This document shows, one piece after another, positions 6,508 to 42,541 of a stretch of DNA of 42,708 nt. The position numbers were made by a program, and so were the translations under genes. The stretch's first letter is position 1; each line of letters opens with the position of its first letter. The stretch lies in assembly GCA_031266515.1 (NCBI GenBank), contig JAISAW010000087.1:1-42708 (forward strand), given 5' to 3'. The stretch comes from Eubacteriales Family XIII. Incertae Sedis bacterium (lineage in GTDB: Bacteria; Bacillota; Clostridia; Peptostreptococcales; Anaerovoracaceae). Under the pieces are notes generated by a model that saw only the letters and a list, made by a program, of their open reading frames with translations, did no database searches and was not told the origin of the DNA.

Positions 6508-6833
6508 TTATTACCCCGGCAGCAAATAGCAGGAAGTCGCGCCGGTCTTTCCGCTAATCTGCTTTGTTGGCGAAATCCTTACATACTGCCCGCTTAGGAT
6601 GAGACTCGTCTTCGACTCGCAGCTGCTTAGGATGAGACTCGTCTTCGACTCGCAGCTGCTTAGGATGAGACTCGTCTTCGACTCGCAGCTGCTTAGGATG
6701 AGACTCGTCTTCGACTCGCAGCTGCTTAGGATGAGACTCACTTCGTTCGCAGCTATATGCGCGGTTTCGCCGCCGCGCATATCAGCTGAAACCCTCGGCA
6801 CTTTATTCCTGCTATTTGTTGCCGGGGTAATAA
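6508..6833. repeat. 326-bp element with 27-bp terminal inverted repeats
   Basis: The left end (6508-6534) and right end (6807-6833) are inverted copies matching at 26 of 27 bases, beginning TTATTACCCCGGCAGC. Between them are the 33-bp tandem array and a hairpin at 6755-6782 (ATATGCGCGG paired with CCGCGCATAT). No transposase is encoded and I see no clear target-site duplication. This architecture fits a non-autonomous, MITE-like element or a large folded structure. It sits directly upstream of the toxin-antitoxin promoter. Apart from this element and the flanking promoters, the 544-bp gap between ribF and the antitoxin holds nothing I can recognise. Confidence 0.65.
6592..6754. repeat. 33-bp tandem repeat array, about five copies
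   Basis: Four identical 33-bp units start at 6592, 6625, 6658 and 6691, each beginning GCTTAGGATGAGACTCGTCT. A fifth, degenerate unit runs from 6724 to 6754. Every junction makes the 8-bp palindrome GCAGCTGC. Because 33 is divisible by 3, the array stays open in several frames and creates the repetitive ORFs listed on both strands, which I do not regard as genes. There are no spacers, so it is not CRISPR. Confidence 0.85.
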
Positions 6834-32133: not shown

Positions 32134-32206
32134 TATGGAAGGTATTCTCTCATACTGCTTAATTTGAAACGAGACGTGATTGCCTTGACGCTTACCTTTT
32201 TGTCCC
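32134..32206. repeat. 73-bp direct repeat, left copy
   Basis: This 73-bp sequence, beginning TATGGAAGGTATTCTCTCAT and ending in TTTTTGTCCC, is identical and in the same orientation at 41707-41779. In both places a different piece of rhuM lies immediately to its left. Confidence 0.9.
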
Positions 32207-32216
32207 GCAGATATAT

Positions 32217-32306
32217 ACGGCAAGACAAAATAGAACCGTCCCATTTTTGTCGACGGCAAGACAAAATAGAACCGTCCCATTTTTGTCGAACCGTCCCATT
32301 TTTGTC
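32217..32306. repeat. 35-bp interspersed repeat, two and a half copies
   Basis: A 36-bp unit starting ACGGCAAGACAAAATAGAAC occurs at 32217-32252 and 32253-32288, and a half copy AACCGTCCCATTTTTGTC follows at 32289-32306. Related copies lie at 41396-41426 (same strand, 30 of 31 matching) and 42507-42541 (inverted, 34 of 35 matching). The unit is bounded by GACAAAA and TTTTGTC, so it is partly palindromic. It is probably a REP-like element. Confidence 0.85.
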
Positions 32307-32356: not shown

Positions 32357-32941
32357 TTAACGCAGACCGTCAAACACGATATCGAGCATCCGGCCGACGC
32401 GCTTCCTGCACGCTTCTTCATCGTTTGGTTCAGTGAGCGGCGTTTCGTACAGTACGGAATAATAGACCCCGAGCAGACTGTCAACCGCTGTGTCGATCTC
32501 GATGTCCGCGCGGATGCTGCCCTCGGATTTTGCCTGTACGACAAGACAGATCAGCATGGAGCGGATACGCGCCTGCGTCTTGCCTGGTTCTTCCTCAAAG
32601 CTGTTGATCAGGAATACAATACGCCGCGTCAACACAAGGTAGGAAACGGCGTCAAGAATATAGGATTCAAGCAGCAGGCGGATACGTTCCGTTGCGCTCG
32701 CGTCCGTATCCACTGTCTCGGTGAACATCTTTTCGAGCGAAACCATTTCTTCCTCGGCGATACCGACGAGCAGGCTTCCCTTACTGGGGAAATAGTTATA
32801 GAGGGTCTGCCGCGCGACATGGGCGCTGTCAGCGATATCGTTCACCATCGTTTCTTCATAGCCGTTCTCGCGGAACATGTGGCGCGCCGTTTTCAGGATG
32901 CGTTCCCTCGTTCTGATTTTATTTCTTTCTCGCAATACCAT
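32357..32941 (-). CDS. TetR-family transcriptional regulator
   Basis: The 194-residue protein has an N-terminal helix-turn-helix (ILKTARHMFRENGYEETMVNDIADSAHVARQTLYNYF) and a helical ligand-binding part. TetR regulators usually repress a divergent operon until an effector binds. It is transcribed away from the aminotransferase/RLP cassette with about 120 bases between, so it is the obvious controller. No ribosome site is seen before the ATG, and a TATAAA sits 8 bases upstream. Arg codons are CGC/CGT-rich, unlike the core genes to the left. Confidence 0.88.
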   Translation of the reverse strand: MVLRERNKIRTRERILKTARHMFRENGYEETMVNDIADSAHVARQTLYNYFPSKGSLLVGIAEEEMVSLEKMFTETVDTDASATERIRLLLESYILDAVSYLVLTRRIVFLINSFEEEPGKTQARIRSMLICLVVQAKSEGSIRADIEIDTAVDSLLGVYYSVLYETPLTEPNDEEACRKRVGRMLDIVFDGLR

Positions 32942-32989: not shown

Positions 32990-33018
32990 TTGACTACATC
33001 TTTGGACTTGAGTATAGT
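32990..33018 (+). promoter_or_regulatory. Promoter of the RLP catabolic cassette
   Basis: TTGACT and TATAGT are separated by 17 bases, followed by a leader of about 35 bases with GGAGG before the aminotransferase. The direct repeats CTTGACTA and CTTGAGTA overlap both boxes and could be a regulator site, although no clear palindrome typical of TetR is visible. Confidence 0.7.
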
Positions 33019-33060: not shown

Positions 33061-34518
33061 ATGATTGACTTGACTAAAAAAGGGTATTCGATATCCTGTT
33101 GGCCTGATGAGAAAGCCATTTACGAGAAGATGGGCCTTTTGGTAAACGGGGCCGATTACCATCTCAAGCCGGAGGCTTTACGGGAATACATGGGATATTT
33201 TGAGATCAAATGTGCCGGCTCCAAAAAATTGAACGAAGAAGCGAAACAGTATATTCCAGGCGGCGTTCAGCACAATCTCGCGTTCAATACGCCGTTTCCG
33301 CTCGCGGCGGCCAAGGCGGAGGGCGCTTATCTTTACGACGTGGACGGCAACCGGTATGTTGATTATCTGCAAGCCGGCGGTCCGACGCTGCTCGGCAGCA
33401 ATTACGCGCCTGTGCGCGAAAAAGCTATCGAGGTCATCAGCGAGAGTTCGCCGTGCACGGGTCTTTTCCATGAATATGAGATGAAACTCGCGCAGGAAAT
33501 TAATAAGCATATGCCGTGGGTCGAACAATTCCGCGCGTTGGCGAGCGGCACGGAATCCGACATGCTCGCGCTCAGGGTCGCGCGTTGTTATACCGGCAAG
33601 AAGAAGATAATCAAGGCGGGTGGCGCCTATCACGGTTGGAGCGACCAGCTCGTCTACGGATTGCACATTCCGTTTACGGGCAATTTTGAATCGCACGGTA
33701 TCCCGGGAGAGTGCTATGCCAACACGCAGGAGTTTTTCCCGAACGACATCGAAGGACTTCGCAAACTTTTCGAAAAGAACGAAGCCGATGGCGGCACTGC
33801 GGCTGTTATCCTTGAACCGTTTGGTCCGGAAAGCGGCACGAGGCCGGTTACACAGACGTTCAATTATGAGGTGAGAAAGCTGTGCGACGAGTTCGGCGCA
33901 TTGCTCATCTTCGATGAAGTCGTCACCGGTTTCCGCGTGGGGCCGGGCGGCGCGGCCGGGTTCTTTGACATCAAGCCGGATCTTGTCGTCTTTGGCAAAA
34001 TCGTCGCGGGGGGCTATCCGGCGGCAGGCGGCATCGGCGGCAGCAAAGACGTTATGAGCGTGGTCGCGGCGGGCGTCGATACGAGCAAGCCGCGCGCATA
34101 TTGCGGAGGCACCCTTTCAGCCAACCCCTTGAGCTGCGCAGCCGGATATTACGCGATAAAGGAGATCGTGGAGCGTGACGCCGCGGCTAAGGCGGGCAAG
34201 GCCGGCGACAGGCTTACGGAAGGCATCAACAAACTGATCGACAAGTACGATCTGCCGTTTGTGGCATGGAATACGGGATCCATTGTGCATTTTGAAGTTT
34301 CCGGGATGATGTATGTCGATGTGCGCAGGGAGGATGCAATGCAGCAGCTTCACCTGAAACGCAAGCGTGTCGAGGAGTTCGGCGCCGCGCTCACCGCGAA
34401 TGGCGTCATCACTCTTGCCGGCAGCCGCATCTATACGAGTATGGCCGATGATGACGAAACGCTTCAGCTCACGCTTCGGGCGTTTGACGATGTCATGGGC
34501 AATCTGACGTTGAGTTAA
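33061..34518 (+). CDS. Class III aminotransferase (GSA aminomutase-like)
   Basis: This fold-type I PLP enzyme resembles glutamate-1-semialdehyde 2,1-aminomutase and omega-amino transaminases. A 50-residue N-terminal extension precedes SKKLNEEAKQYIPGGVQH, where the family fold begins, making 485 residues against about 430. FDEVVTGFRVG holds the PLP Asp and FGKIVAGGYPAAGG the Schiff-base lysine; GTESDMLALRVAR binds phosphate. The start ATG has GGAGG five bases upstream. No heme genes are nearby, so haem synthesis is unlikely. As first gene of the cassette it probably moves an amino group on the pathway substrate or a late keto product. Arg codons are CGC/CGT-rich. Confidence 0.88.
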   Translation: MIDLTKKGYSISCWPDEKAIYEKMGLLVNGADYHLKPEALREYMGYFEIKCAGSKKLNEEAKQYIPGGVQHNLAFNTPFPLAAAKAEGAYLYDVDGNRYVDYLQAGGPTLLGSNYAPVREKAIEVISESSPCTGLFHEYEMKLAQEINKHMPWVEQFRALASGTESDMLALRVARCYTGKKKIIKAGGAYHGWSDQLVYGLHIPFTGNFESHGIPGECYANTQEFFPNDIEGLRKLFEKNEADGGTAAVILEPFGPESGTRPVTQTFNYEVRKLCDEFGALLIFDEVVTGFRVGPGGAAGFFDIKPDLVVFGKIVAGGYPAAGGIGGSKDVMSVVAAGVDTSKPRAYCGGTLSANPLSCAAGYYAIKEIVERDAAAKAGKAGDRLTEGINKLIDKYDLPFVAWNTGSIVHFEVSGMMYVDVRREDAMQQLHLKRKRVEEFGAALTANGVITLAGSRIYTSMADDDETLQLTLRAFDDVMGNLTLS

Positions 34519-34547: not shown

Positions 34548-35864
34548 ATGATCAGAAGACTTGAAGATGTGAACATGATGTACGCCTTTCCCGAGGTGGC
34601 GCTGGACGAAGGCTACGCGATCGGCACCTTCCAGGCCAAGGTGAAAACGAAGGACATCGAGAAGCTCGCAATGGCGATCGCCGATGAACAGACCACGGGT
34701 ACGTGGATAAAGGTCGGCGGCAGCTCGGATGAAAAGAACAAGATTTTCGGCGCGAAGGTCGTTTCGGTCTACGAGGTCCCGGACACCGCATCCGATTATA
34801 TGGCGGACGAACCGCCGATGTACCTCATACAAGTCGCCTTCCCCGTCAAGAATTTCGGAACCAGCATCCCGATGATGCTCTCAACAGTATTCGGCAACAT
34901 CTCCGCTTCGGGCATGCTCAAGTGGATTGACTGCGCGTTTCCGAAAAGCTATGTGGAGCAGTTCAAAGGACCGCAGTTTGGCGTGCAGGGCTTGCGCGAC
35001 GTGCTCAACATACCAGACCGACCGCTGCTCAACGCGATGATAAAACCCAATATCGGCTGGACGCCGGACGAGGGCGCGCAGATATTCTACGACACGGCGC
35101 GGGGCGGCGTGGACGTTATCAAAGATGACGAATTGTTGCCCGCAGACGAATCGTTCTGCCCGCTTAAAGAGCGTGTCACGAAATTCATGGCAATGGAAAA
35201 GAGAGCGTTTGAGGAGACAGGCGAACACACACTCTACGCGACAAACATCACGGACGATGTCGCGAAGATTCGCGATAACGCGCTCAGAGCTATCGAGTAC
35301 GGCACGAACTGCCTGATGATCAACGCGTACACGGCCGGGTTCAGCGCGCTGAAGATGCTTGCGGACGATCCCGACATCAACGTGCCGATTCTCGCGCATA
35401 TCGATTTTGTCGGCGCGATGGCCGGCAGCACGTACACCGGAATATCCGCGCCTCTGCTTATCGGAAAACTCGTGCGCCTCTCCGGCGGCGATTTCCAGAT
35501 CAACGGTCATCCGTGGGGCAAATTCCCCGTGCCGAATAAAATGTTCTTCCGCTCATTCAAATTCTTCACCCAGCCGTGGTGGAATATAAAGCCGATGATG
35601 TACGCGGCTTCGGGCGGCACGACGCAGCTTGCCGTACCACATATCATGAAGGCCGCGGGCACGGACGTCATTCTCGCCGCAGGCGGCGCTGTTCACGGGC
35701 ATCCGGACGGAAGTTTCGCGGGCGCTCGCTCGATGCGTCAAGCGATCGACGCGACGATGGACGGTATTTCTCTGCCGGAGGCGGCGAAGAAATACGAGGA
35801 GCTGGGCCGCATGGTCGCGTTCCTCGATCCGGATATTTTGAAGAACTTCGATCTGATGAATTAA
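34548..35864 (+). CDS. RuBisCO-like protein (form IV)
   Basis: A 438-residue homologue of the RuBisCO large subunit. Lys166 in MIKPNIG and the metal cluster Lys192-Asp194-Glu195 in GGVDVIKDDE correspond to the enolising base and carbamylated-Lys/Asp/Glu set of R. rubrum RuBisCO. The barrel end ASGGTTQLAVPHIM and AAGGAVHGHPDG keep the phosphate-binding glycines. The loop-6 GKMEG-type lysine motif is not recognisable, and KPKLG has become KPNIG, so CO2 fixation is unlikely. Known form IV members enolise, isomerise or decarboxylate sugar phosphates (MtnW and apionate-pathway RLPs). GAGG lies before the ATG, and the next start overlaps its stop in TAATG. Confidence 0.92.
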   Translation: MIRRLEDVNMMYAFPEVALDEGYAIGTFQAKVKTKDIEKLAMAIADEQTTGTWIKVGGSSDEKNKIFGAKVVSVYEVPDTASDYMADEPPMYLIQVAFPVKNFGTSIPMMLSTVFGNISASGMLKWIDCAFPKSYVEQFKGPQFGVQGLRDVLNIPDRPLLNAMIKPNIGWTPDEGAQIFYDTARGGVDVIKDDELLPADESFCPLKERVTKFMAMEKRAFEETGEHTLYATNITDDVAKIRDNALRAIEYGTNCLMINAYTAGFSALKMLADDPDINVPILAHIDFVGAMAGSTYTGISAPLLIGKLVRLSGGDFQINGHPWGKFPVPNKMFFRSFKFFTQPWWNIKPMMYAASGGTTQLAVPHIMKAAGTDVILAAGGAVHGHPDGSFAGARSMRQAIDATMDGISLPEAAKKYEELGRMVAFLDPDILKNFDLMN

Positions 35865-36508
35865 TGGCTATGTACGACACTATTGTATTTATAGACTTCG
35901 ATGGCACCGTGACGTCCGAGGAGACGCTCACGGGGTCATTGAAGCACCTCGATCCGCCGCCCGAAGGTGCGGCGGAAATCGAGCGCAAACTTACCGCGGG
36001 CGAATTGACGCTGAAAGAAGCGGTGACTTCCGTCTTTTCGTCCGTGCGGTCGGATCGGGTCGGCGAATTTACGCGATATATCAATTCCGTGCCGCTGCGG
36101 GCGGGATTCGGTGCGCTTTTGGACGCGCTTTGGTCGCGCGGTATCCCCGTCGTCATCGTGAGCGGCGGGCTTGACATTATGGTGAAGGAAAAACTCGCGC
36201 CGTACCGTGAGAAGCTGACGGATATTTGGGACGTTAAAGTCGATCTCTCCGAAGCGTATTTCAAGCTCGTCGCGGAACCGGAAGGGGAACTGGAGCTTAT
36301 CGACAAGGTCGCGGTTATGGGCAGATACACATACCGGCGCGCAGTCTGCATCGGCGACGGTTATACGGACATCCTGATGGCGCGAAACGCGGATGTGGTG
36401 TACGCGCGGGATGCGCTGGAGGTCTATCTCAAAGCGCATGACATACCGTATCGTCCATGGGAAGATTTCCGTGATATTTTGAAAGACGTTGAAAACAAAA
36501 ATGTTTGA
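35864..36508 (+). CDS. MtnX-like HAD phosphatase
   Basis: A 214-residue HAD-superfamily hydrolase with the nucleophile motif FIDFDGTVT (Asp11 and Asp13), motif II VIVSGG, and IGDGYTDILMARNADVVYARD as motif IV. This pattern, with a cap inserted between motifs I and II, resembles MtnX, which dephosphorylates the enol product of the RLP MtnW, and PSP-like phosphatases. The start overlaps the RLP stop by one base, so the two are translationally coupled, which supports consecutive steps. ATG 35870 is an alternative start. Substrate is unknown. Confidence 0.85.
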   Translation: MAMYDTIVFIDFDGTVTSEETLTGSLKHLDPPPEGAAEIERKLTAGELTLKEAVTSVFSSVRSDRVGEFTRYINSVPLRAGFGALLDALWSRGIPVVIVSGGLDIMVKEKLAPYREKLTDIWDVKVDLSEAYFKLVAEPEGELELIDKVAVMGRYTYRRAVCIGDGYTDILMARNADVVYARDALEVYLKAHDIPYRPWEDFRDILKDVENKNV

Positions 36509-36604: not shown

Positions 36605-37180
36605 GTGCGTGAAGTCGAACGAAAACTGAGAGTTGGAACGGCGGAGCAGGCACATATCGTCGATTTTTGTATGCGCGAAGGATTTACGGCTTTGGGCGAA
36701 ACTTCGCAGACAGACCTATATTTTACACCGTCAAACCGCAATATCTACGAGGAGGATATGGCTCTGAGGCTGCGTACCGATCGGATCTTCGGCGGGAAAG
36801 AAGAGTCAACGATAACATTCAAAGGGAAAGGACGCGATGACTCCTTTCACGACAGAACAGAAATCGAAACGGGCGTAGAGGACGGCAACGCGTTTGCCGG
36901 TATTCTGCGCTCGCTTGCATTTCAAGAGGTATTAACGGTCAGAAAGAAAAGGAGGTCTTATACAAAGGGCCCCGCCACGGTTTCGCTTGACGAAGTGGAG
37001 GGGCTCGGTTTTTTTGTTGAGGTGGAATATGTGGCGGAGGATACGGAAGCGGGTAAGGAACAGGCTGTCTCGGTGATCAACGGGCTGATCGAAAAGATGG
37101 ATATGGAATCTGCAGTGAACGAGCCGAAGAATTATCTGCAGCTTCTTGCTGCGAAAAAGATTGCGGAAGGGCGTGAATGA
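36605..37180 (+). CDS. CYTH-domain protein (CyaB/ThTPase-like)
   Basis: CYTH proteins are tunnel-fold metal-dependent enzymes acting on triphosphates, including class IV adenylate cyclases and thiamine or inorganic triphosphatases. The N-terminal ExExK motif is EVERK. Later strands have LRLRTD, TITFKGKG, RTEIETG and FVEVEYVAED, giving the alternating charged residues of the tunnel. The start is GTG with GAGG upstream. The next gene begins directly after its stop. Its role in a carbon-use operon is unclear: cAMP-like signalling, removal of a triphosphate, or a pathway substrate are all possible. Confidence 0.82.
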   Translation: MREVERKLRVGTAEQAHIVDFCMREGFTALGETSQTDLYFTPSNRNIYEEDMALRLRTDRIFGGKEESTITFKGKGRDDSFHDRTEIETGVEDGNAFAGILRSLAFQEVLTVRKKRRSYTKGPATVSLDEVEGLGFFVEVEYVAEDTEAGKEQAVSVINGLIEKMDMESAVNEPKNYLQLLAAKKIAEGRE

Positions 37181-38755
37181 ATGGAAGAACGATTAATAAT
37201 TGCCTATGATATGGGAACGACGGGCAATAAGGCATGCCTGTATTCACTCAGGGCTGGCGGCATTGAAAAGGTCGCCGAAAAACAGGTTCGGTATGGCGTG
37301 TCAATCCGTCCCGGAGGCGGCGTCGAGCAGAATCCTGAGGAACTTTGGGGCAGCATCCGCGGGGTGAGCAAAGCTTTGCTTTCGGAAACGGGGACTCGGC
37401 CCGAAGATATTGCGATGGTCTCATTTTGCACACAGATGCAGGCTGTCGTGCTTCTGGACAAGAACGGGAAACCCCTTCGCCCCATTATGAACTATATGGA
37501 TGAACGGGCCGCCGGCCAGTTTGAAAAATTCAACGAGGGGCCGATTCGAGTCGACGGGTTGAACGCGGTCAAAAACCTCGCGGCGATTCGCGAAAACGGC
37601 ATTACGGCCGCCAGCGCGAAAGACCCCGTTTACAAATACAAGTGGGTGCGTGAAAACGAGCCGGAAATTTTCTCGAAAATCTATAAATACGTGGATGTCG
37701 GAGGGTGGGTGTTGCATCGCTGTACCGGCAGGTATGTGACGACCGAGGACGTCGCGTATACCGCGCTCGTCTACGATGCCCGAGGGCATCATTGGAGTGA
37801 AAAGCTCTGCCGGATGCATCAGGTCGAGATGAGCCATCTGCCCGAAATCGTCGGCTCTACGGAATGCGTCGGAACCCTTACGGAAGCAGCGGCGGCGGAT
37901 ATGGGACTGACGACAAACTGCAAGGTCATAGGCGGCGGAGGCGATGTCGCGATGATCGCGCTTGGCGCCGGCTGCACGAAACTGGGCGACACGCTCGCCT
38001 ATATTGGGACTTCGGGCTGGGTGACGACGTGCGTCGACAAACTCGGCATTGACCTCGCCAACAGCATCGGTTCGACGGTGGGCGCGCAGCAGGGCGTTTA
38101 CCTGTATTTCGCCGAAATGGAACTCGCGGGCAAGAATATCGAATGGGCCAGAGATAATCTCATGCTCGACGGGGAAGGGGTTTACGCGGCAAAAGAATTA
38201 TCCGACGAGGATGTTATGCATAGAATCGGCGAGATCGCCGGCAGATCTTCTCCCGGCGCGGGCGGCGTCATTTTCATGCCGTATCTGCTCGGTAACAGAT
38301 GCCCTTTTGAGGATGTTTTCAGCCGCGCATCGTTCTACAACATCAGTTTGACGAACACCAAGGCGGATTTAATGCGCAGCGTTATTGAGAGCATAGCATA
38401 CCATATGTATTGGATGATCGAGCTGATTGAGAAGAAGAAACCGATGAATAACACCTTGCGGATTATCGGGGGAGGAGCGAAATCGGATCTTCTGTGTCAG
38501 ATACTCGCCGATATGAGCGGTCGCACCACAGAGCGTACAAGAGAACCACAGAACGCCGGTGTGCTTGGTGCGGGAATTCTTGCCGCAAATCATTTCGGGT
38601 ATCTCGATTCGCTTGAGGATGCCAAACGTCTCGCGCAGGTAGGGGATGTATTCGTGCCTGATCCTGAAACGAGAGGCCACTATATGAAAAACTATCAGAT
38701 CTATAAGCAGTGGCCAGCGCAAAACAAGAAAAATTTCAGATTTTTGAATAAATAA
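37181..38755 (+). CDS. FGGY-family carbohydrate kinase
   Basis: A 524-residue kinase of the xylulokinase/glycerol kinase family. The N-terminal phosphate loop is AYDMGTTGNKACLY, the catalytic region is PIMNYMDERAAGQ with the expected base Asp, and the second ATP site is IIGGGAKSDLLCQILADM. It would phosphorylate a sugar, sugar alcohol or ketose using ATP. It begins on the base after the CYTH stop, so the pair is coupled. The specific sugar is not deducible. In methionine salvage the analogous kinase MtnK belongs to another fold, so this points to a different starting compound. Confidence 0.9.
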   Translation: MEERLIIAYDMGTTGNKACLYSLRAGGIEKVAEKQVRYGVSIRPGGGVEQNPEELWGSIRGVSKALLSETGTRPEDIAMVSFCTQMQAVVLLDKNGKPLRPIMNYMDERAAGQFEKFNEGPIRVDGLNAVKNLAAIRENGITAASAKDPVYKYKWVRENEPEIFSKIYKYVDVGGWVLHRCTGRYVTTEDVAYTALVYDARGHHWSEKLCRMHQVEMSHLPEIVGSTECVGTLTEAAAADMGLTTNCKVIGGGGDVAMIALGAGCTKLGDTLAYIGTSGWVTTCVDKLGIDLANSIGSTVGAQQGVYLYFAEMELAGKNIEWARDNLMLDGEGVYAAKELSDEDVMHRIGEIAGRSSPGAGGVIFMPYLLGNRCPFEDVFSRASFYNISLTNTKADLMRSVIESIAYHMYWMIELIEKKKPMNNTLRIIGGGAKSDLLCQILADMSGRTTERTREPQNAGVLGAGILAANHFGYLDSLEDAKRLAQVGDVFVPDPETRGHYMKNYQIYKQWPAQNKKNFRFLNK

Positions 38756-38802: not shown

Positions 38803-39855
38803 ATGGATAAGAATACGGCAAAAGAGCAAGTAGTTCGCGCGGGACGCGAGCTTGTGGCGAAAAGGCTTGTGGCTCGTACCTGGGGCAATGTGAGTTGCCG
38901 CTGCGATGAGCATATGTTTGTCATCACGCCGAGCGGCATTGGTTATGAGCGTCTAACGCCCGATTTGATCGTGGCTGTAGACACGCGGGATGGATCTTAT
39001 CAGGGTGATGTCGCTCCTTCTTCGGAATACAAGATGCATACTGCGATTTATAGCGCCCGTCCGGATGTCGGCTTTATTATCCATACGCACCAAACTTATG
39101 CGACGTGCATAGGCCTTGCGGATCTTGAAAGGCTTGCGCCGACGCCGGAAGAGACGAAACGGCTTGGCGGATCGATCGGTATTGCTGAATATGCTTTCCC
39201 CGGCACCAACAAACTCAAAGAGAACGTGAAAAAGGAGATTGCAGTGAGAGGCGGCGTTGTACTCATGAAGCGACATGGCGCAATCGCTGTCGGTGATACC
39301 TCTGATAAAGCATTCGGCCGCGCCAATCTGCTCGAAGAAGTGGCAAAGCGTGCGATGCCGGGTATTGTCTATGCCGCAGACGAGCCTGCGGCTACAGCTT
39401 CGCGCCCTTCCGGCGGAAACGGTCATTGCGGCGCTGAGGCCGAAGATCATATCGCTCCATACGCGGCGGCAATTTTCGCGCGACACGCCGATGTTTCGCA
39501 GATACTGCTTTTGAATTCACCGTCAACCGTGGCGGTGATGGATCGGAGGCGCGCAATTCCCGCGCTGATAGATGATTACGCGTTCATTGTCGGGACGGAC
39601 GCGAAGGTAGTTGATCCGATTCCCGAAAAGGCTGCTGCCGCGCTTTCAAGCAGATCCGCAGTTTTCGTCCGAGGTCTTGGCGCACTCTGCTGCGCCGCAG
39701 AACTTTCTGACGCGGAGGCCGTCATGATGTTGGTCGAAAAGAACGTGATGGCTCTGCGCGCGGCCGAACAATACGGAAAAATCAAGGCAATCCCGTATTG
39801 GGAGCGGCTGCTGTTAAGGCAGGTATACGTATCGAAATACTCAAAGAAGAAGTAG
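38803..39855 (+). CDS. Two-domain class II aldolase/epimerase-like protein
   Basis: The first half (about 1-200) is a class II aldolase-fold domain of the fuculose-phosphate aldolase/MtnB group. TWGNVS is the phosphate loop, PSSEYKMHTAIY holds the catalytic Glu, and HTHQ with KRHGAIAVG supplies the zinc histidines. The second half (about 205-350) looks like a second, degenerate copy (DVSQILLLNSPSTVAV, then AVFVRGLGALCCA) without the metal ligands. The enzyme would cleave, dehydrate or epimerise the kinase product. GTG 38791 is an alternative start; neither has a strong ribosome site. Confidence 0.85.
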   Translation: MDKNTAKEQVVRAGRELVAKRLVARTWGNVSCRCDEHMFVITPSGIGYERLTPDLIVAVDTRDGSYQGDVAPSSEYKMHTAIYSARPDVGFIIHTHQTYATCIGLADLERLAPTPEETKRLGGSIGIAEYAFPGTNKLKENVKKEIAVRGGVVLMKRHGAIAVGDTSDKAFGRANLLEEVAKRAMPGIVYAADEPAATASRPSGGNGHCGAEAEDHIAPYAAAIFARHADVSQILLLNSPSTVAVMDRRRAIPALIDDYAFIVGTDAKVVDPIPEKAAAALSSRSAVFVRGLGALCCAAELSDAEAVMMLVEKNVMALRAAEQYGKIKAIPYWERLLLRQVYVSKYSKKK

Positions 39856-39913: not shown

Positions 39914-41152
39914 ATGAAACAGCAGGATGATTATAAGGTATACGGTTATCGTTGGGTGGTATTAGCGCTTTATGTCGCAGTCGCAACCATGATTCAGATT
40001 ATGTGGGCCACTTTTTTCGCCATTACGCTTGAAGCGGGCGCCTATTACGGCTTTGCGGCAGACGAGGCGGAATCGGCAATCAGTCTCTTTTCGATTATCT
40101 TCATGATTGGAATGATTGTGGTCTCCATACCATCTTTCGCGATGTTTGAGAAGTGGGGTTACAAAAAATCCGTCGGTTTCGGTGTGATACTCATGACAAT
40201 CGGAGCTATGTTGCGAGGCATCTTCGGGCATAATTATACGATTGTCCTGATTTGCACCATCCTGTTTGCTATTGCGCAACCCTTCATATTGAACGCGGTC
40301 GGTCTTGTCGCGGGCAAATGGTTCCCCGCAAAAGAACGTGCTACCGCGAACGGACTGGGACTGCTTTCAAATTATGTAGGCATCATGATAGGCCTGATCC
40401 TTGTACCGGTGATTCTGTCCGGAGGCACGGATATCCAGGGTATGCTAATGATCCTTGGCATTGTCGCCGCGATCTTTTCAGCGTTGTTTTGCATATTCAC
40501 CAAAGAGGCACCACCTACGCCACCATGTGCTGATGAGGACTATGTACGCGAAAAGTTTCTCAGCGGTATGAAGCAGTTGTTCAAGAAAAAAGATTTCATC
40601 AAAATAATGCTCGCGTTCTTTCTGACACTCGGTGTGTTTAACGTGTTTTTCACTCTCATCGAGCCGATTCTCCAATCTTTCGGAGGGAGCGTGATCAACT
40701 CCGTACAGGTCGGAATTATCGGAGTCATTATGCTTATCATGGCAATCGTTGGCAGCGTTGTGATTCCGATGCTGTCGGATAAAGACAGGCATCAGCGAAG
40801 AAAGCCATACATGGTACTCGGTATGGCTCTTGGGACATTGGGTCTCGGCTTTATGATAGTGTCACACAGCTTCGGTATGTTGACCACGTTCGCTATAGTC
40901 TATGGCTTGTTTGGTATCGGCGCCGGTCCAATCACTATGACGCTCGCGGCGGAGATAGGGTATCCTACAAGCGAGGGAACCTCGGAAGGTTTACTGTTGC
41001 TCGCGGGCAATATCGCGGGCGCGGTTTTCCTGATTGCTGCCGATGTTTTCAGCGGGAACTATACCGCGCTGATGATTGCGCTGACCGCGATGGATCTGAT
41101 TGCACTCGCGCTCATGATCGCTACAAGAGAAAAGAAAAAAGATGTAGCATAA
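39914..41152 (+). CDS. MFS transporter
   Basis: A 412-residue transporter with twelve predicted membrane segments in two six-helix halves and a charged central loop (EDYVREKFLSGMKQLFKKKD). The N-terminal half, with MWATFFAITLEAGAYYGF and WFPAKERATANGLG, resembles the FLVCR-like branch of the family, but substrate cannot be predicted. AAGGAAGG precedes the ATG. As the last cassette gene it probably imports the compound metabolised by the enzymes ahead of it. A long hairpin follows. Confidence 0.88.
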   Translation: MKQQDDYKVYGYRWVVLALYVAVATMIQIMWATFFAITLEAGAYYGFAADEAESAISLFSIIFMIGMIVVSIPSFAMFEKWGYKKSVGFGVILMTIGAMLRGIFGHNYTIVLICTILFAIAQPFILNAVGLVAGKWFPAKERATANGLGLLSNYVGIMIGLILVPVILSGGTDIQGMLMILGIVAAIFSALFCIFTKEAPPTPPCADEDYVREKFLSGMKQLFKKKDFIKIMLAFFLTLGVFNVFFTLIEPILQSFGGSVINSVQVGIIGVIMLIMAIVGSVVIPMLSDKDRHQRRKPYMVLGMALGTLGLGFMIVSHSFGMLTTFAIVYGLFGIGAGPITMTLAAEIGYPTSEGTSEGLLLLAGNIAGAVFLIAADVFSGNYTALMIALTAMDLIALALMIATREKKKDVA

Positions 41153-41179: not shown

Positions 41180-41222
41180 AGACAGGCACAAACCCACTAA
41201 AATAGCGGGTTTGTGCCTGTCT
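41180..41222. terminator. Perfect 16-bp hairpin after the MFS gene
   Basis: AGACAGGCACAAACCC pairs perfectly with GGGTTTGTGCCTGTCT across an 11-base loop. No T-run follows, so it may be a REP-like palindrome doubling as a terminator or 3'-end stabiliser. Confidence 0.5.
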
Positions 41223-41395: not shown

Positions 41396-41426
41396 CAAGC
41401 CAAAATAGAACCGTCCCATTTTTGTC
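41396..41426. repeat. 35-bp interspersed repeat, right inner copy
   Basis: Matches 30 of 31 bases of 32221-32251 in the same orientation, followed by a further CTCCCTTTTTGTCTG partial unit. It interrupts the end of the right rhuM remnant. Confidence 0.8.
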
Positions 41427-41706: not shown

Positions 41707-41779
41707 TATGGAAGGTATTCTCTCATACTGCTTAATTTGAAACGAGACGTGATTGCCTTGACGCTTACCTTTTTGTCCC
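41707..41779. repeat. 73-bp direct repeat, right copy
   Basis: Identical over 73 bp and in the same orientation as 32134-32206. Its left end also forms the 14-bp palindrome CTTCCATATGGAAG (41701-41714), which the left copy lacks. Confidence 0.9.
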
Positions 41780-42447: not shown

Positions 42448-42541
42448 GGACAAAAAGGGGACGACAAAAAGGGGACGGTTCAAAGGGGACAAAAAGGGGA
42501 CGGTTCGACAAAAAGGGGACGGTTCTATTTTGTCTTGCCGT
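42448..42541. repeat. 35-bp interspersed repeat cluster, inverted
   Basis: A complete unit at 42507-42541 is the inverse of 32217-32251 (34 of 35 bases). Upstream are several partial units of the type GACAAAAAGGGGACG. Between 42542 and the window end I see nothing further. Confidence 0.8.

Follow-up and report, generated by a model that had tools for sequence, protein, structure and literature searches.

A clade of RuBisCO-like proteins from anaerobic Clostridia and its conserved kinase, aminotransferase, and phosphatase gene cluster

RuBisCO-like proteins (RLPs) have enediolate formation in common and then diverge, only a handful of them have a known function, and keto-shifted products are known as side products of RuBisCO (PMC10176493). 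In RuBisCO, carbamylated Lys201 takes the C3 proton, Lys175, Lys177, and His294 act in proton transfer, and Lys177 lies near the carboxylate (PMC8855871). The RLPs of the apionate pathway are described, in a passage of PMC6302742 that cites Carter 2018, as a decarboxylase and a transcarboxylase/hydrolase. The described systems with which we compare the present locus are MtnW, the 2,3-diketo-5-methylthiopentyl-1-phosphate enolase (form IV-YkrW), OiaX and the OiaX-like RLPs of the apionate pathway (form IV), and RuBisCO forms I to III. In RuBisCO, Arg295 and His327 bind the second phosphate of RuBP, and Glu60 is the partner of the loop-6 lysine.

The RLP and its place in the family

The window, by which we mean the whole stretch of DNA that was analyzed (42,708 nucleotides), comes from an anaerobic bacterium, probably of the gut. 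The draft genome of this host (1.79 Mb, 82% complete) contains a single gene of the RuBisCO family:

34548 to 35864, plus strand: RuBisCO-like protein (RLP), 438 amino acids (Pfam, AlphaFold2, Foldseek, 18-row clade)

The ORF is intact, with an ATG at 34548 and a stop codon at 35862 to 35864, exactly where the earlier note on this DNA had placed it. Pfam recognized both RuBisCO_large (PF00016; E value of 3.9e-50, 171 bits versus a curated cutoff of 30.1) and RuBisCO_large_N (PF02788; E value of 4.7e-10, 40 bits versus 20.7). The AlphaFold2 model, for which plasmid-derived rows were left out of the input alignment, had a mean pLDDT of 91.6 and a pTM of 0.90, and in a Foldseek search, MtnW, form III RuBisCO, and further RLPs scored at a similar level (TM scores of ∼0.80 to 0.94). 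Both Pfam domains, the RuBisCO fold, the metal/carbamate triad, and an equivalent of K175 place the protein in the RuBisCO superfamily (residues of RuBisCO are given in spinach numbering throughout). At K177 and the second-phosphate residues R295 and H327, which mark carboxylating RuBisCOs (forms I to III), it carries N168, I285, and I318.

The best NCBIfam models were two for MtnW (320.5 bits, cutoff of 409; 286.8 bits, cutoff of 513.6), followed by form III RuBisCO and then OiaX, both far under their cutoffs (182.7 bits versus 700 for OiaX). In an IQ-TREE phylogeny, the RLP fell in an 18-row clade with a support of 100/100, nested within a larger Clostridia RLP group that MtnW joined weakly (90/79) on a long branch, and both OiaX with form I and the transketolase-linked RLPs branched separately. 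Among the named relatives, the closest (96%) comes from a Clostridiales Family XIII MAG, and further ones come from Anaerovorax, Sinanaerobacter, Emergencia, Mobilibacterium, Oscillospiraceae MAGs, and one Spirochaete MAG. As judged from these sequences, the RLPs form a distinct clade of anaerobic Clostridia. We regard it as a real form IV subfamily, so far uncharacterized, with a defined gene cluster.

Active-site residues and loop 6

We aligned the RLP with 46 relatives (47 sequences), including annotated form I, MtnW, OiaX, and OiaX-like proteins, and located the following elements:

35043 to 35045, plus strand: codon of Lys166, equivalent to spinach K175 and R. rubrum K166 (alignment, translation)
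35049 to 35051, plus strand: codon of Asn168, in place of spinach K177 (alignment, translation)
35121 to 35132, plus strand: metal/carbamate cluster K192-D-D194-E195, equivalent to spinach K201, D203, and E204 (alignment, translation)
35508 to 35534, plus strand: loop 6, HPWGKFPVP, residues 321 to 329, with K325 (35520 to 35522) equivalent to spinach K334 (alignment, AlphaFold2 limits, translation)

The earlier note had assigned the enolization lysine to KPNIG and the metal cluster to IKDDE, and had read the second lysine of KPK as replaced by Asn. The alignment bore out these assignments, and K166, K192, and D194 were invariant across the 47 RuBisCO-family sequences. Further residues of the RLP correspond to H294 (H284), E60 (E47), N123 (N117), and S379 (S355). 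Within the clade, Glu47 and Asn117 were invariant in 18 of the 18 aligned members, as likewise were the metal/carbamate triad and the equivalents of K175 and H294. The first-phosphate (P1) site is retained (Thr65, Trp66, Gly381, Gly403, and Gly404), and the second-phosphate (P2) site is lost, with Ile285 at Arg295 and Ile318 at His327; clade-wide, these positions hold I, V, or S and I, respectively. Thus, a substrate with one phosphate is expected. The published roles of the RuBisCO residues agree with a predicted enolizing site in the RLP.

Loop 6 had been described as lacking any GKMEG-like motif, which proved wrong: GGDFQINGHPWGKFPVPN of the RLP aligned with GVDHLHAGTAVGKLEGD of form I, with K325 (GHPWGKF) on Lys334. 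In the AlphaFold2 model, a strand at 316 to 320 (β6) leads into the loop HPWGKFPVP at 321 to 329 and then a helix at 330 to 341 (α6), and we identify K325 as the loop-6 lysine because the model places it between β6 and α6. This lysine was invariant (18/18 aligned clade members), and only Glu-Gly and a few further form I residues after the lysine are missing from the loop. The carboxylase-type pair K334/Glu60 is present as K325/E47. Across the 47 sequences, Glu60 and Lys334 were mostly kept or lost jointly, a pattern that amounts to at most two independent changes on the tree and is not significant. RLPs that likewise bear a loop-6 lysine include OiaX and OiaX-like proteins (L042 to L048).

A loop-6 lysine and metal ligands that fail to superpose were the two observations that the earlier note had named as speaking against its reading. 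The lysine is present, and the metal ligands appear superposable, as judged by alignment, secondary structure, and Foldseek scores. Since K325 is present, a lack of CO2 chemistry is not arguable from loop 6; it is the loss of Lys177 and of the P2 site that argues against carboxylation of RuBP. Accordingly, one part of the predicted mechanism stands, namely, a metal-dependent, enolizing RLP acting on a mono-phosphorylated carbonyl (the triad, the K175 equivalent, and the P1 site are kept, and the P2 site is replaced), but the proposal that CO2 addition is absent because the carboxylase loop is missing does not, as the loop-6 lysine and Glu60 are both there. Three features make carboxylation by the RLP unlikely: Asn168, the loss of the P2 site, and the surrounding genes.

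The RLP shares with RuBisCO forms I to III the fold and the equivalents of K175, K201, D203, E204, H294, N123, E60, K334, and S379 but differs in having Asn at K177 and hydrophobic residues at R295 and H327, in lacking Glu-Gly after K334, and in a gene context that looks catabolic. With MtnW, to which it is 33% identical, it has in common the fold, the metal triad, the lost P2 site, and a gene for an MtnX-like phosphatase next downstream. In contrast, MtnW has G, K, and S at E60, N123, and K334, where the RLP retains E, N, and K. The lysine at the Asn123 position, occupied by Asn117 in the RLP, was found in L041 and in 2oek (K98, counted from the alignment), and we take K98 of 2oek to be the catalytic base in MtnW. 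The OiaX group (27 to 31% identity) resembles the RLP in its loop-6 lysine, its metal triad, and the replacement of K177, but it keeps Arg295 and mostly His327 and has Phe at Trp66. We rejected membership of the RLP in the MtnW family, given the two missed NCBIfam cutoffs and Asn117 in place of lysine, and in the OiaX family, given its low score with that model and an FGGY kinase gene instead of one for a four-carbon acid sugar kinase. The clade thus joins a carboxylase-type loop-6 lysine and Glu60 to a lost second-phosphate site, and it bears on which residues divide enolization from carboxylation in the RuBisCO fold.

The gene cluster and its relatives

Around the RLP gene, the window contains the following:

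32357 to 32941, minus strand: TetR regulator, divergent (profile match)
32990 to 33018, plus strand: candidate operon promoter TTGACT-17-TATAGT (10/12 match; site count of the region not above shuffles)
33061 to 34518, plus strand: class III (GSAM-like) aminotransferase AT3 (ATG 33061 after GGGAGG; longest ORF from TTG 33031)
35864 to 36508, plus strand: HAD-IB phosphatase, MtnX-like (start codon shares one base with the stop codon of the RLP, TAATG)
36605 to 37180, plus strand: CYTH-domain protein, CyaB/triphosphatase-like (profile match; recurrent neighbor)
37181 to 38755, plus strand: FGGY (XylB-like) carbohydrate kinase (profile match)
38803 to 39855, plus strand: two-domain class II aldolase (ATG 38803; longest ORF from GTG 38791)
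39914 to 41152, plus strand: MFS transporter (profile match)
41180 to 41222, no strand assigned: candidate terminator, a 20-pair hairpin directly after the MFS gene (T tail on the minus strand)

The phosphatase has intact HAD motifs (DFDGT, SGG, and GDxxTD) and scored 98.5 bits with the NCBIfam MtnX model, which misses the equivalog cutoff of 292. In domain 1 of the aldolase, the catalytic Glu and the zinc His of the FucA/RhaD group are intact (PSSE, HTH, and HG). We searched between the divergent genes for an inverted repeat that could serve as a TetR operator and found none. An identical 73-bp direct repeat (32134 to 32206 and 41707 to 41779) flanks the operon, as do iterated GACAAAA/GGGACGGTTC elements (32217 to 32306, 41401 to 41426, and 42462 to 42541); these repeats are a possible footprint of an insertion of the operon or of a REP-like element. 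Elsewhere in the window, at 6592 to 6739, lies a tandem repeat of GCTTAGGATGAGACTCGTCTTCGACTCGCAGCT. Another gene for the aminotransferase (53%) lies elsewhere in the host genome (contig C78, L079:1121-2551), alongside its own TetR gene and with no kinase or RLP gene nearby.

Nearly every complete locus of the clade had the genes for TetR, the FGGY kinase, the aminotransferase, the RLP, and the HAD phosphatase as a group, and about half had the MFS gene; the order TetR, FGGY, (MFS), aminotransferase, RLP, HAD is common to several genera and one Spirochaete MAG. The aminotransferase gene adjoined the RLP gene in nearly all clade loci and was present in 14 of the 15 RLP-clade genomes versus 95 of 298 in the family overall (Fisher P = 6e-7, with genome relatedness ignored). 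More distant RLPs (44 to 46% identity) also adjoined this aminotransferase in L051 and L055, the phosphatase of L051 being a different HAD. In G875 and G803, the cluster had shrunk to TetR/MFS/RLP/HAD, with the aminotransferase, aldolase, and kinase genes elsewhere in the genome. The FGGY kinases were only 30 to 45% alike between clusters, so the substrates may differ among them. A CYTH gene recurred beside the cluster, in varying orientation, in most loci (L004, L005, L009, L010, L012, L014 to L016, L115, and L116). This set of RLP, kinase, aminotransferase, and phosphatase genes is apparently undescribed. It is tractable, and its carriers include the cultured anaerobes Emergencia timonensis, Anaerovorax, Sinanaerobacter, and Mobilibacterium.

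Homologues of the aminotransferase (50 to 57%) also occurred without an RLP, in TetR-FGGY-class II aldolase clusters (L064, L065, L074 to L078, and L119 to L124). Such RLP-free clusters were found on Butyrivibrio and Burkholderia plasmids and in several genomes, mostly with TetR and in several cases with an aldehyde dehydrogenase. One of them encodes a fusion of a class II aldolase domain and an aldehyde dehydrogenase (L123:8465-11132), with genes for the aminotransferase, TetR, a GtrA-like protein, and an FGGY kinase next to it. The dehydrogenases are of the benzaldehyde/fatty-aldehyde type, with MdlD as the best model, under its cutoff. The sister clusters thus have the same types of TetR, kinase, and aminotransferase as the RLP clusters but an aldolase, with or without the dehydrogenase, where the latter have the RLP and the phosphatase. 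Because the aminotransferase homologues elsewhere cluster with an aldolase and without an RLP, the RLP and the phosphatase seem to substitute for the class II aldolase. Most RLP clusters indeed lack an aldolase, and the two occur side by side solely in the window and in L002, its 96% relative. Replacement therefore describes most of the clade but does not strictly apply to the operon in the window. Searches of the open-access literature returned nothing relevant on a pathway built from an FGGY kinase, a class III aminotransferase, and a class II aldolase, on a sphinganine degradation of such a type, or on gut RLPs.

Proposed reaction, alternatives, and other RLP types

We see about an even chance that the RLP enolizes a 1-phospho-2-ketone made by the kinase and the aminotransferase, after which the phosphatase takes off the phosphate. 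The kinase, the aminotransferase, and the DHAP-type aldolase point to an intermediate CH2(OP)-CO-CH(OH)-R, which would match what the RLP retains, since in RuBP it is this half that the P1 site and the metal engage. The use of an aldolase in the sister clusters likewise narrows the substrate to something that a DHAP-type aldolase can split. The MFS transporter would import a substrate of the amino-alcohol type, which the FGGY kinase and the class III aminotransferase would phosphorylate and deaminate, in one order or the other, to the phosphoketone. Carbamylated Lys192, Asp194, and Glu195 with Mg2+ would bind the carbonyl and the adjacent hydroxyl of CH2(OPO3)-CO-CH(OH)-R, with its phosphate in the P1 site and R in what was the P2 site of RuBisCO and has become hydrophobic. 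Abstraction of the C3 proton would yield an enediolate, to be held and reprotonated by Lys166, His284, and the loop-6 Lys325 (with Glu47). The outcome may be a tautomerization or a keto shift, and the MtnX-like HAD, whose gene overlaps that of the RLP, would then remove the phosphate. In this scheme, the sister clusters would process the same intermediate with the class II aldolase (and aldehyde dehydrogenase), for which the RLP and the phosphatase would be a substitute. Counting against the scheme are the coexistence of aldolase and RLP in the window, the location of the kinase and aminotransferase genes away from the RLP cluster in G875 and G803, and the low similarity among the FGGY kinases.

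The altered P2 site and the dehydrogenases of the sister clusters, being of the benzaldehyde/fatty-aldehyde type, suggest that R may be hydrophobic. Together with a GtrA-like membrane protein (L064 and L123), the hydrophobic pocket and these dehydrogenases led us to consider sphingoid bases as the substrate, as a lead only.

Of the alternatives, the one that fares best, though we think it unlikely, is that the RLP is an MtnW-type 2,3-diketo-1-phosphate enolase in a pathway like methionine salvage, the MtnX-like HAD dephosphorylating its product to an acireductone. MtnW and MtnX are the top NCBIfam models for the RLP and the HAD, and the gene order (aminotransferase-RLP-HAD) is similar to that of the MtnW operon of Priestia. 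However, the RLP falls under both curated MtnW cutoffs, has Asn117 in place of MtnW K98 and possesses the E60 and K334 equivalents that MtnW lacks, and its neighbors include an FGGY kinase and an aminotransferase of another class (class III). In addition, we found no acireductone dioxygenase in 11 out of 12 genomes of the RLP clade, which makes methionine salvage of the Bacillus type unlikely.

Second in our ranking, and doubtful, is an OiaX-like decarboxylase of a 3-oxo acid 4-phosphate, the 3-oxo acid being made from a 3-amino acid by the aminotransferase. GSAM-like class III aminotransferases do include beta-amino-acid transaminases (PDB matches 4ao9 and 2yku), and the loop-6 lysine is kept as in OiaX and the OiaX-like RLPs, but the OiaX score lies far under its cutoff, the OiaX group is a separate branch with an Arg295 that the RLP has lost, and the kinase is of the FGGY type rather than the four-carbon acid sugar kinase of OiaX-type RLP neighborhoods.

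The R. rubrum RLP reportedly has 5-deoxy- or 5-methylthio-ribulose-1-phosphate isomerase activity. An isomerase of 5-deoxy- or 5-methylthio-ribulose-1-phosphate tied to 5′-deoxyadenosine/MTA salvage appears distinctly improbable here; we keep this link as a rival because 10 out of 12 genomes of the RLP clade encode the MTR-1-P isomerase MtnA, and such ketose-1-phosphates bear the proposed 1-phosphate-2-keto-3-hydroxy motif. Against it, MtnA was found neither in the host genome (82% complete) nor in that of the nearest relative (72% complete), it was in none of the clade's RLP clusters that we read, and the kinase and aminotransferase partners would be left unexplained. We give the same low standing to the idea that the RLP, as a form IV protein of Clostridia from gut and sediment, makes or breaks a C-C bond (by carboxylation or hydrolytic cleavage) of a mono-phosphorylated, hydrophobic-tailed ketone, in place of aldolase and aldehyde dehydrogenase in an undescribed pathway of amino-alcohol degradation, with sphingoid bases as a possible class. 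Least probable of all is a true carboxylase converting CH2(OP)-CO-CHOH-R and CO2 to 3-phosphoglycerate and R-COOH, which would accord with the retained catalytic residues listed above and would replace aldolase and aldehyde dehydrogenase in one step but has against it the Asn at K177 and the lost P2 site, the grouping of the RLP among RLPs and not with carboxylase forms, and a conserved phosphatase that would be pointless were 3-phosphoglycerate the product.

The RLP was also rejected as a member of the transketolase-linked short RLPs, as it keeps E195 at E204 and its cluster has no transketolase. These short RLPs, which adjoin split transketolase genes in L059, L061, L062, and L063, are apparently a further RLP type, in which His or Asp replaces the metal ligand Glu204 and Arg replaces Lys334; their loci contain MtnK/MtnA in Shinella and an FGGY kinase in Vibrio. 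In the RLPs of L056, L058, and L113, Gly takes the position of Glu60, and either Gly or Arg that of Lys334. A triosephosphate isomerase-like gene lies near each of them, and an RpiB-like gene in L056 and L058 (as judged by eye), neighbors that are suggestive of erythrulose-phosphate metabolism. Finally, UPF0261 and PEP-hydrolase-like genes accompany those for the RLPs of L108 and L109 (∼50% to that of the window).
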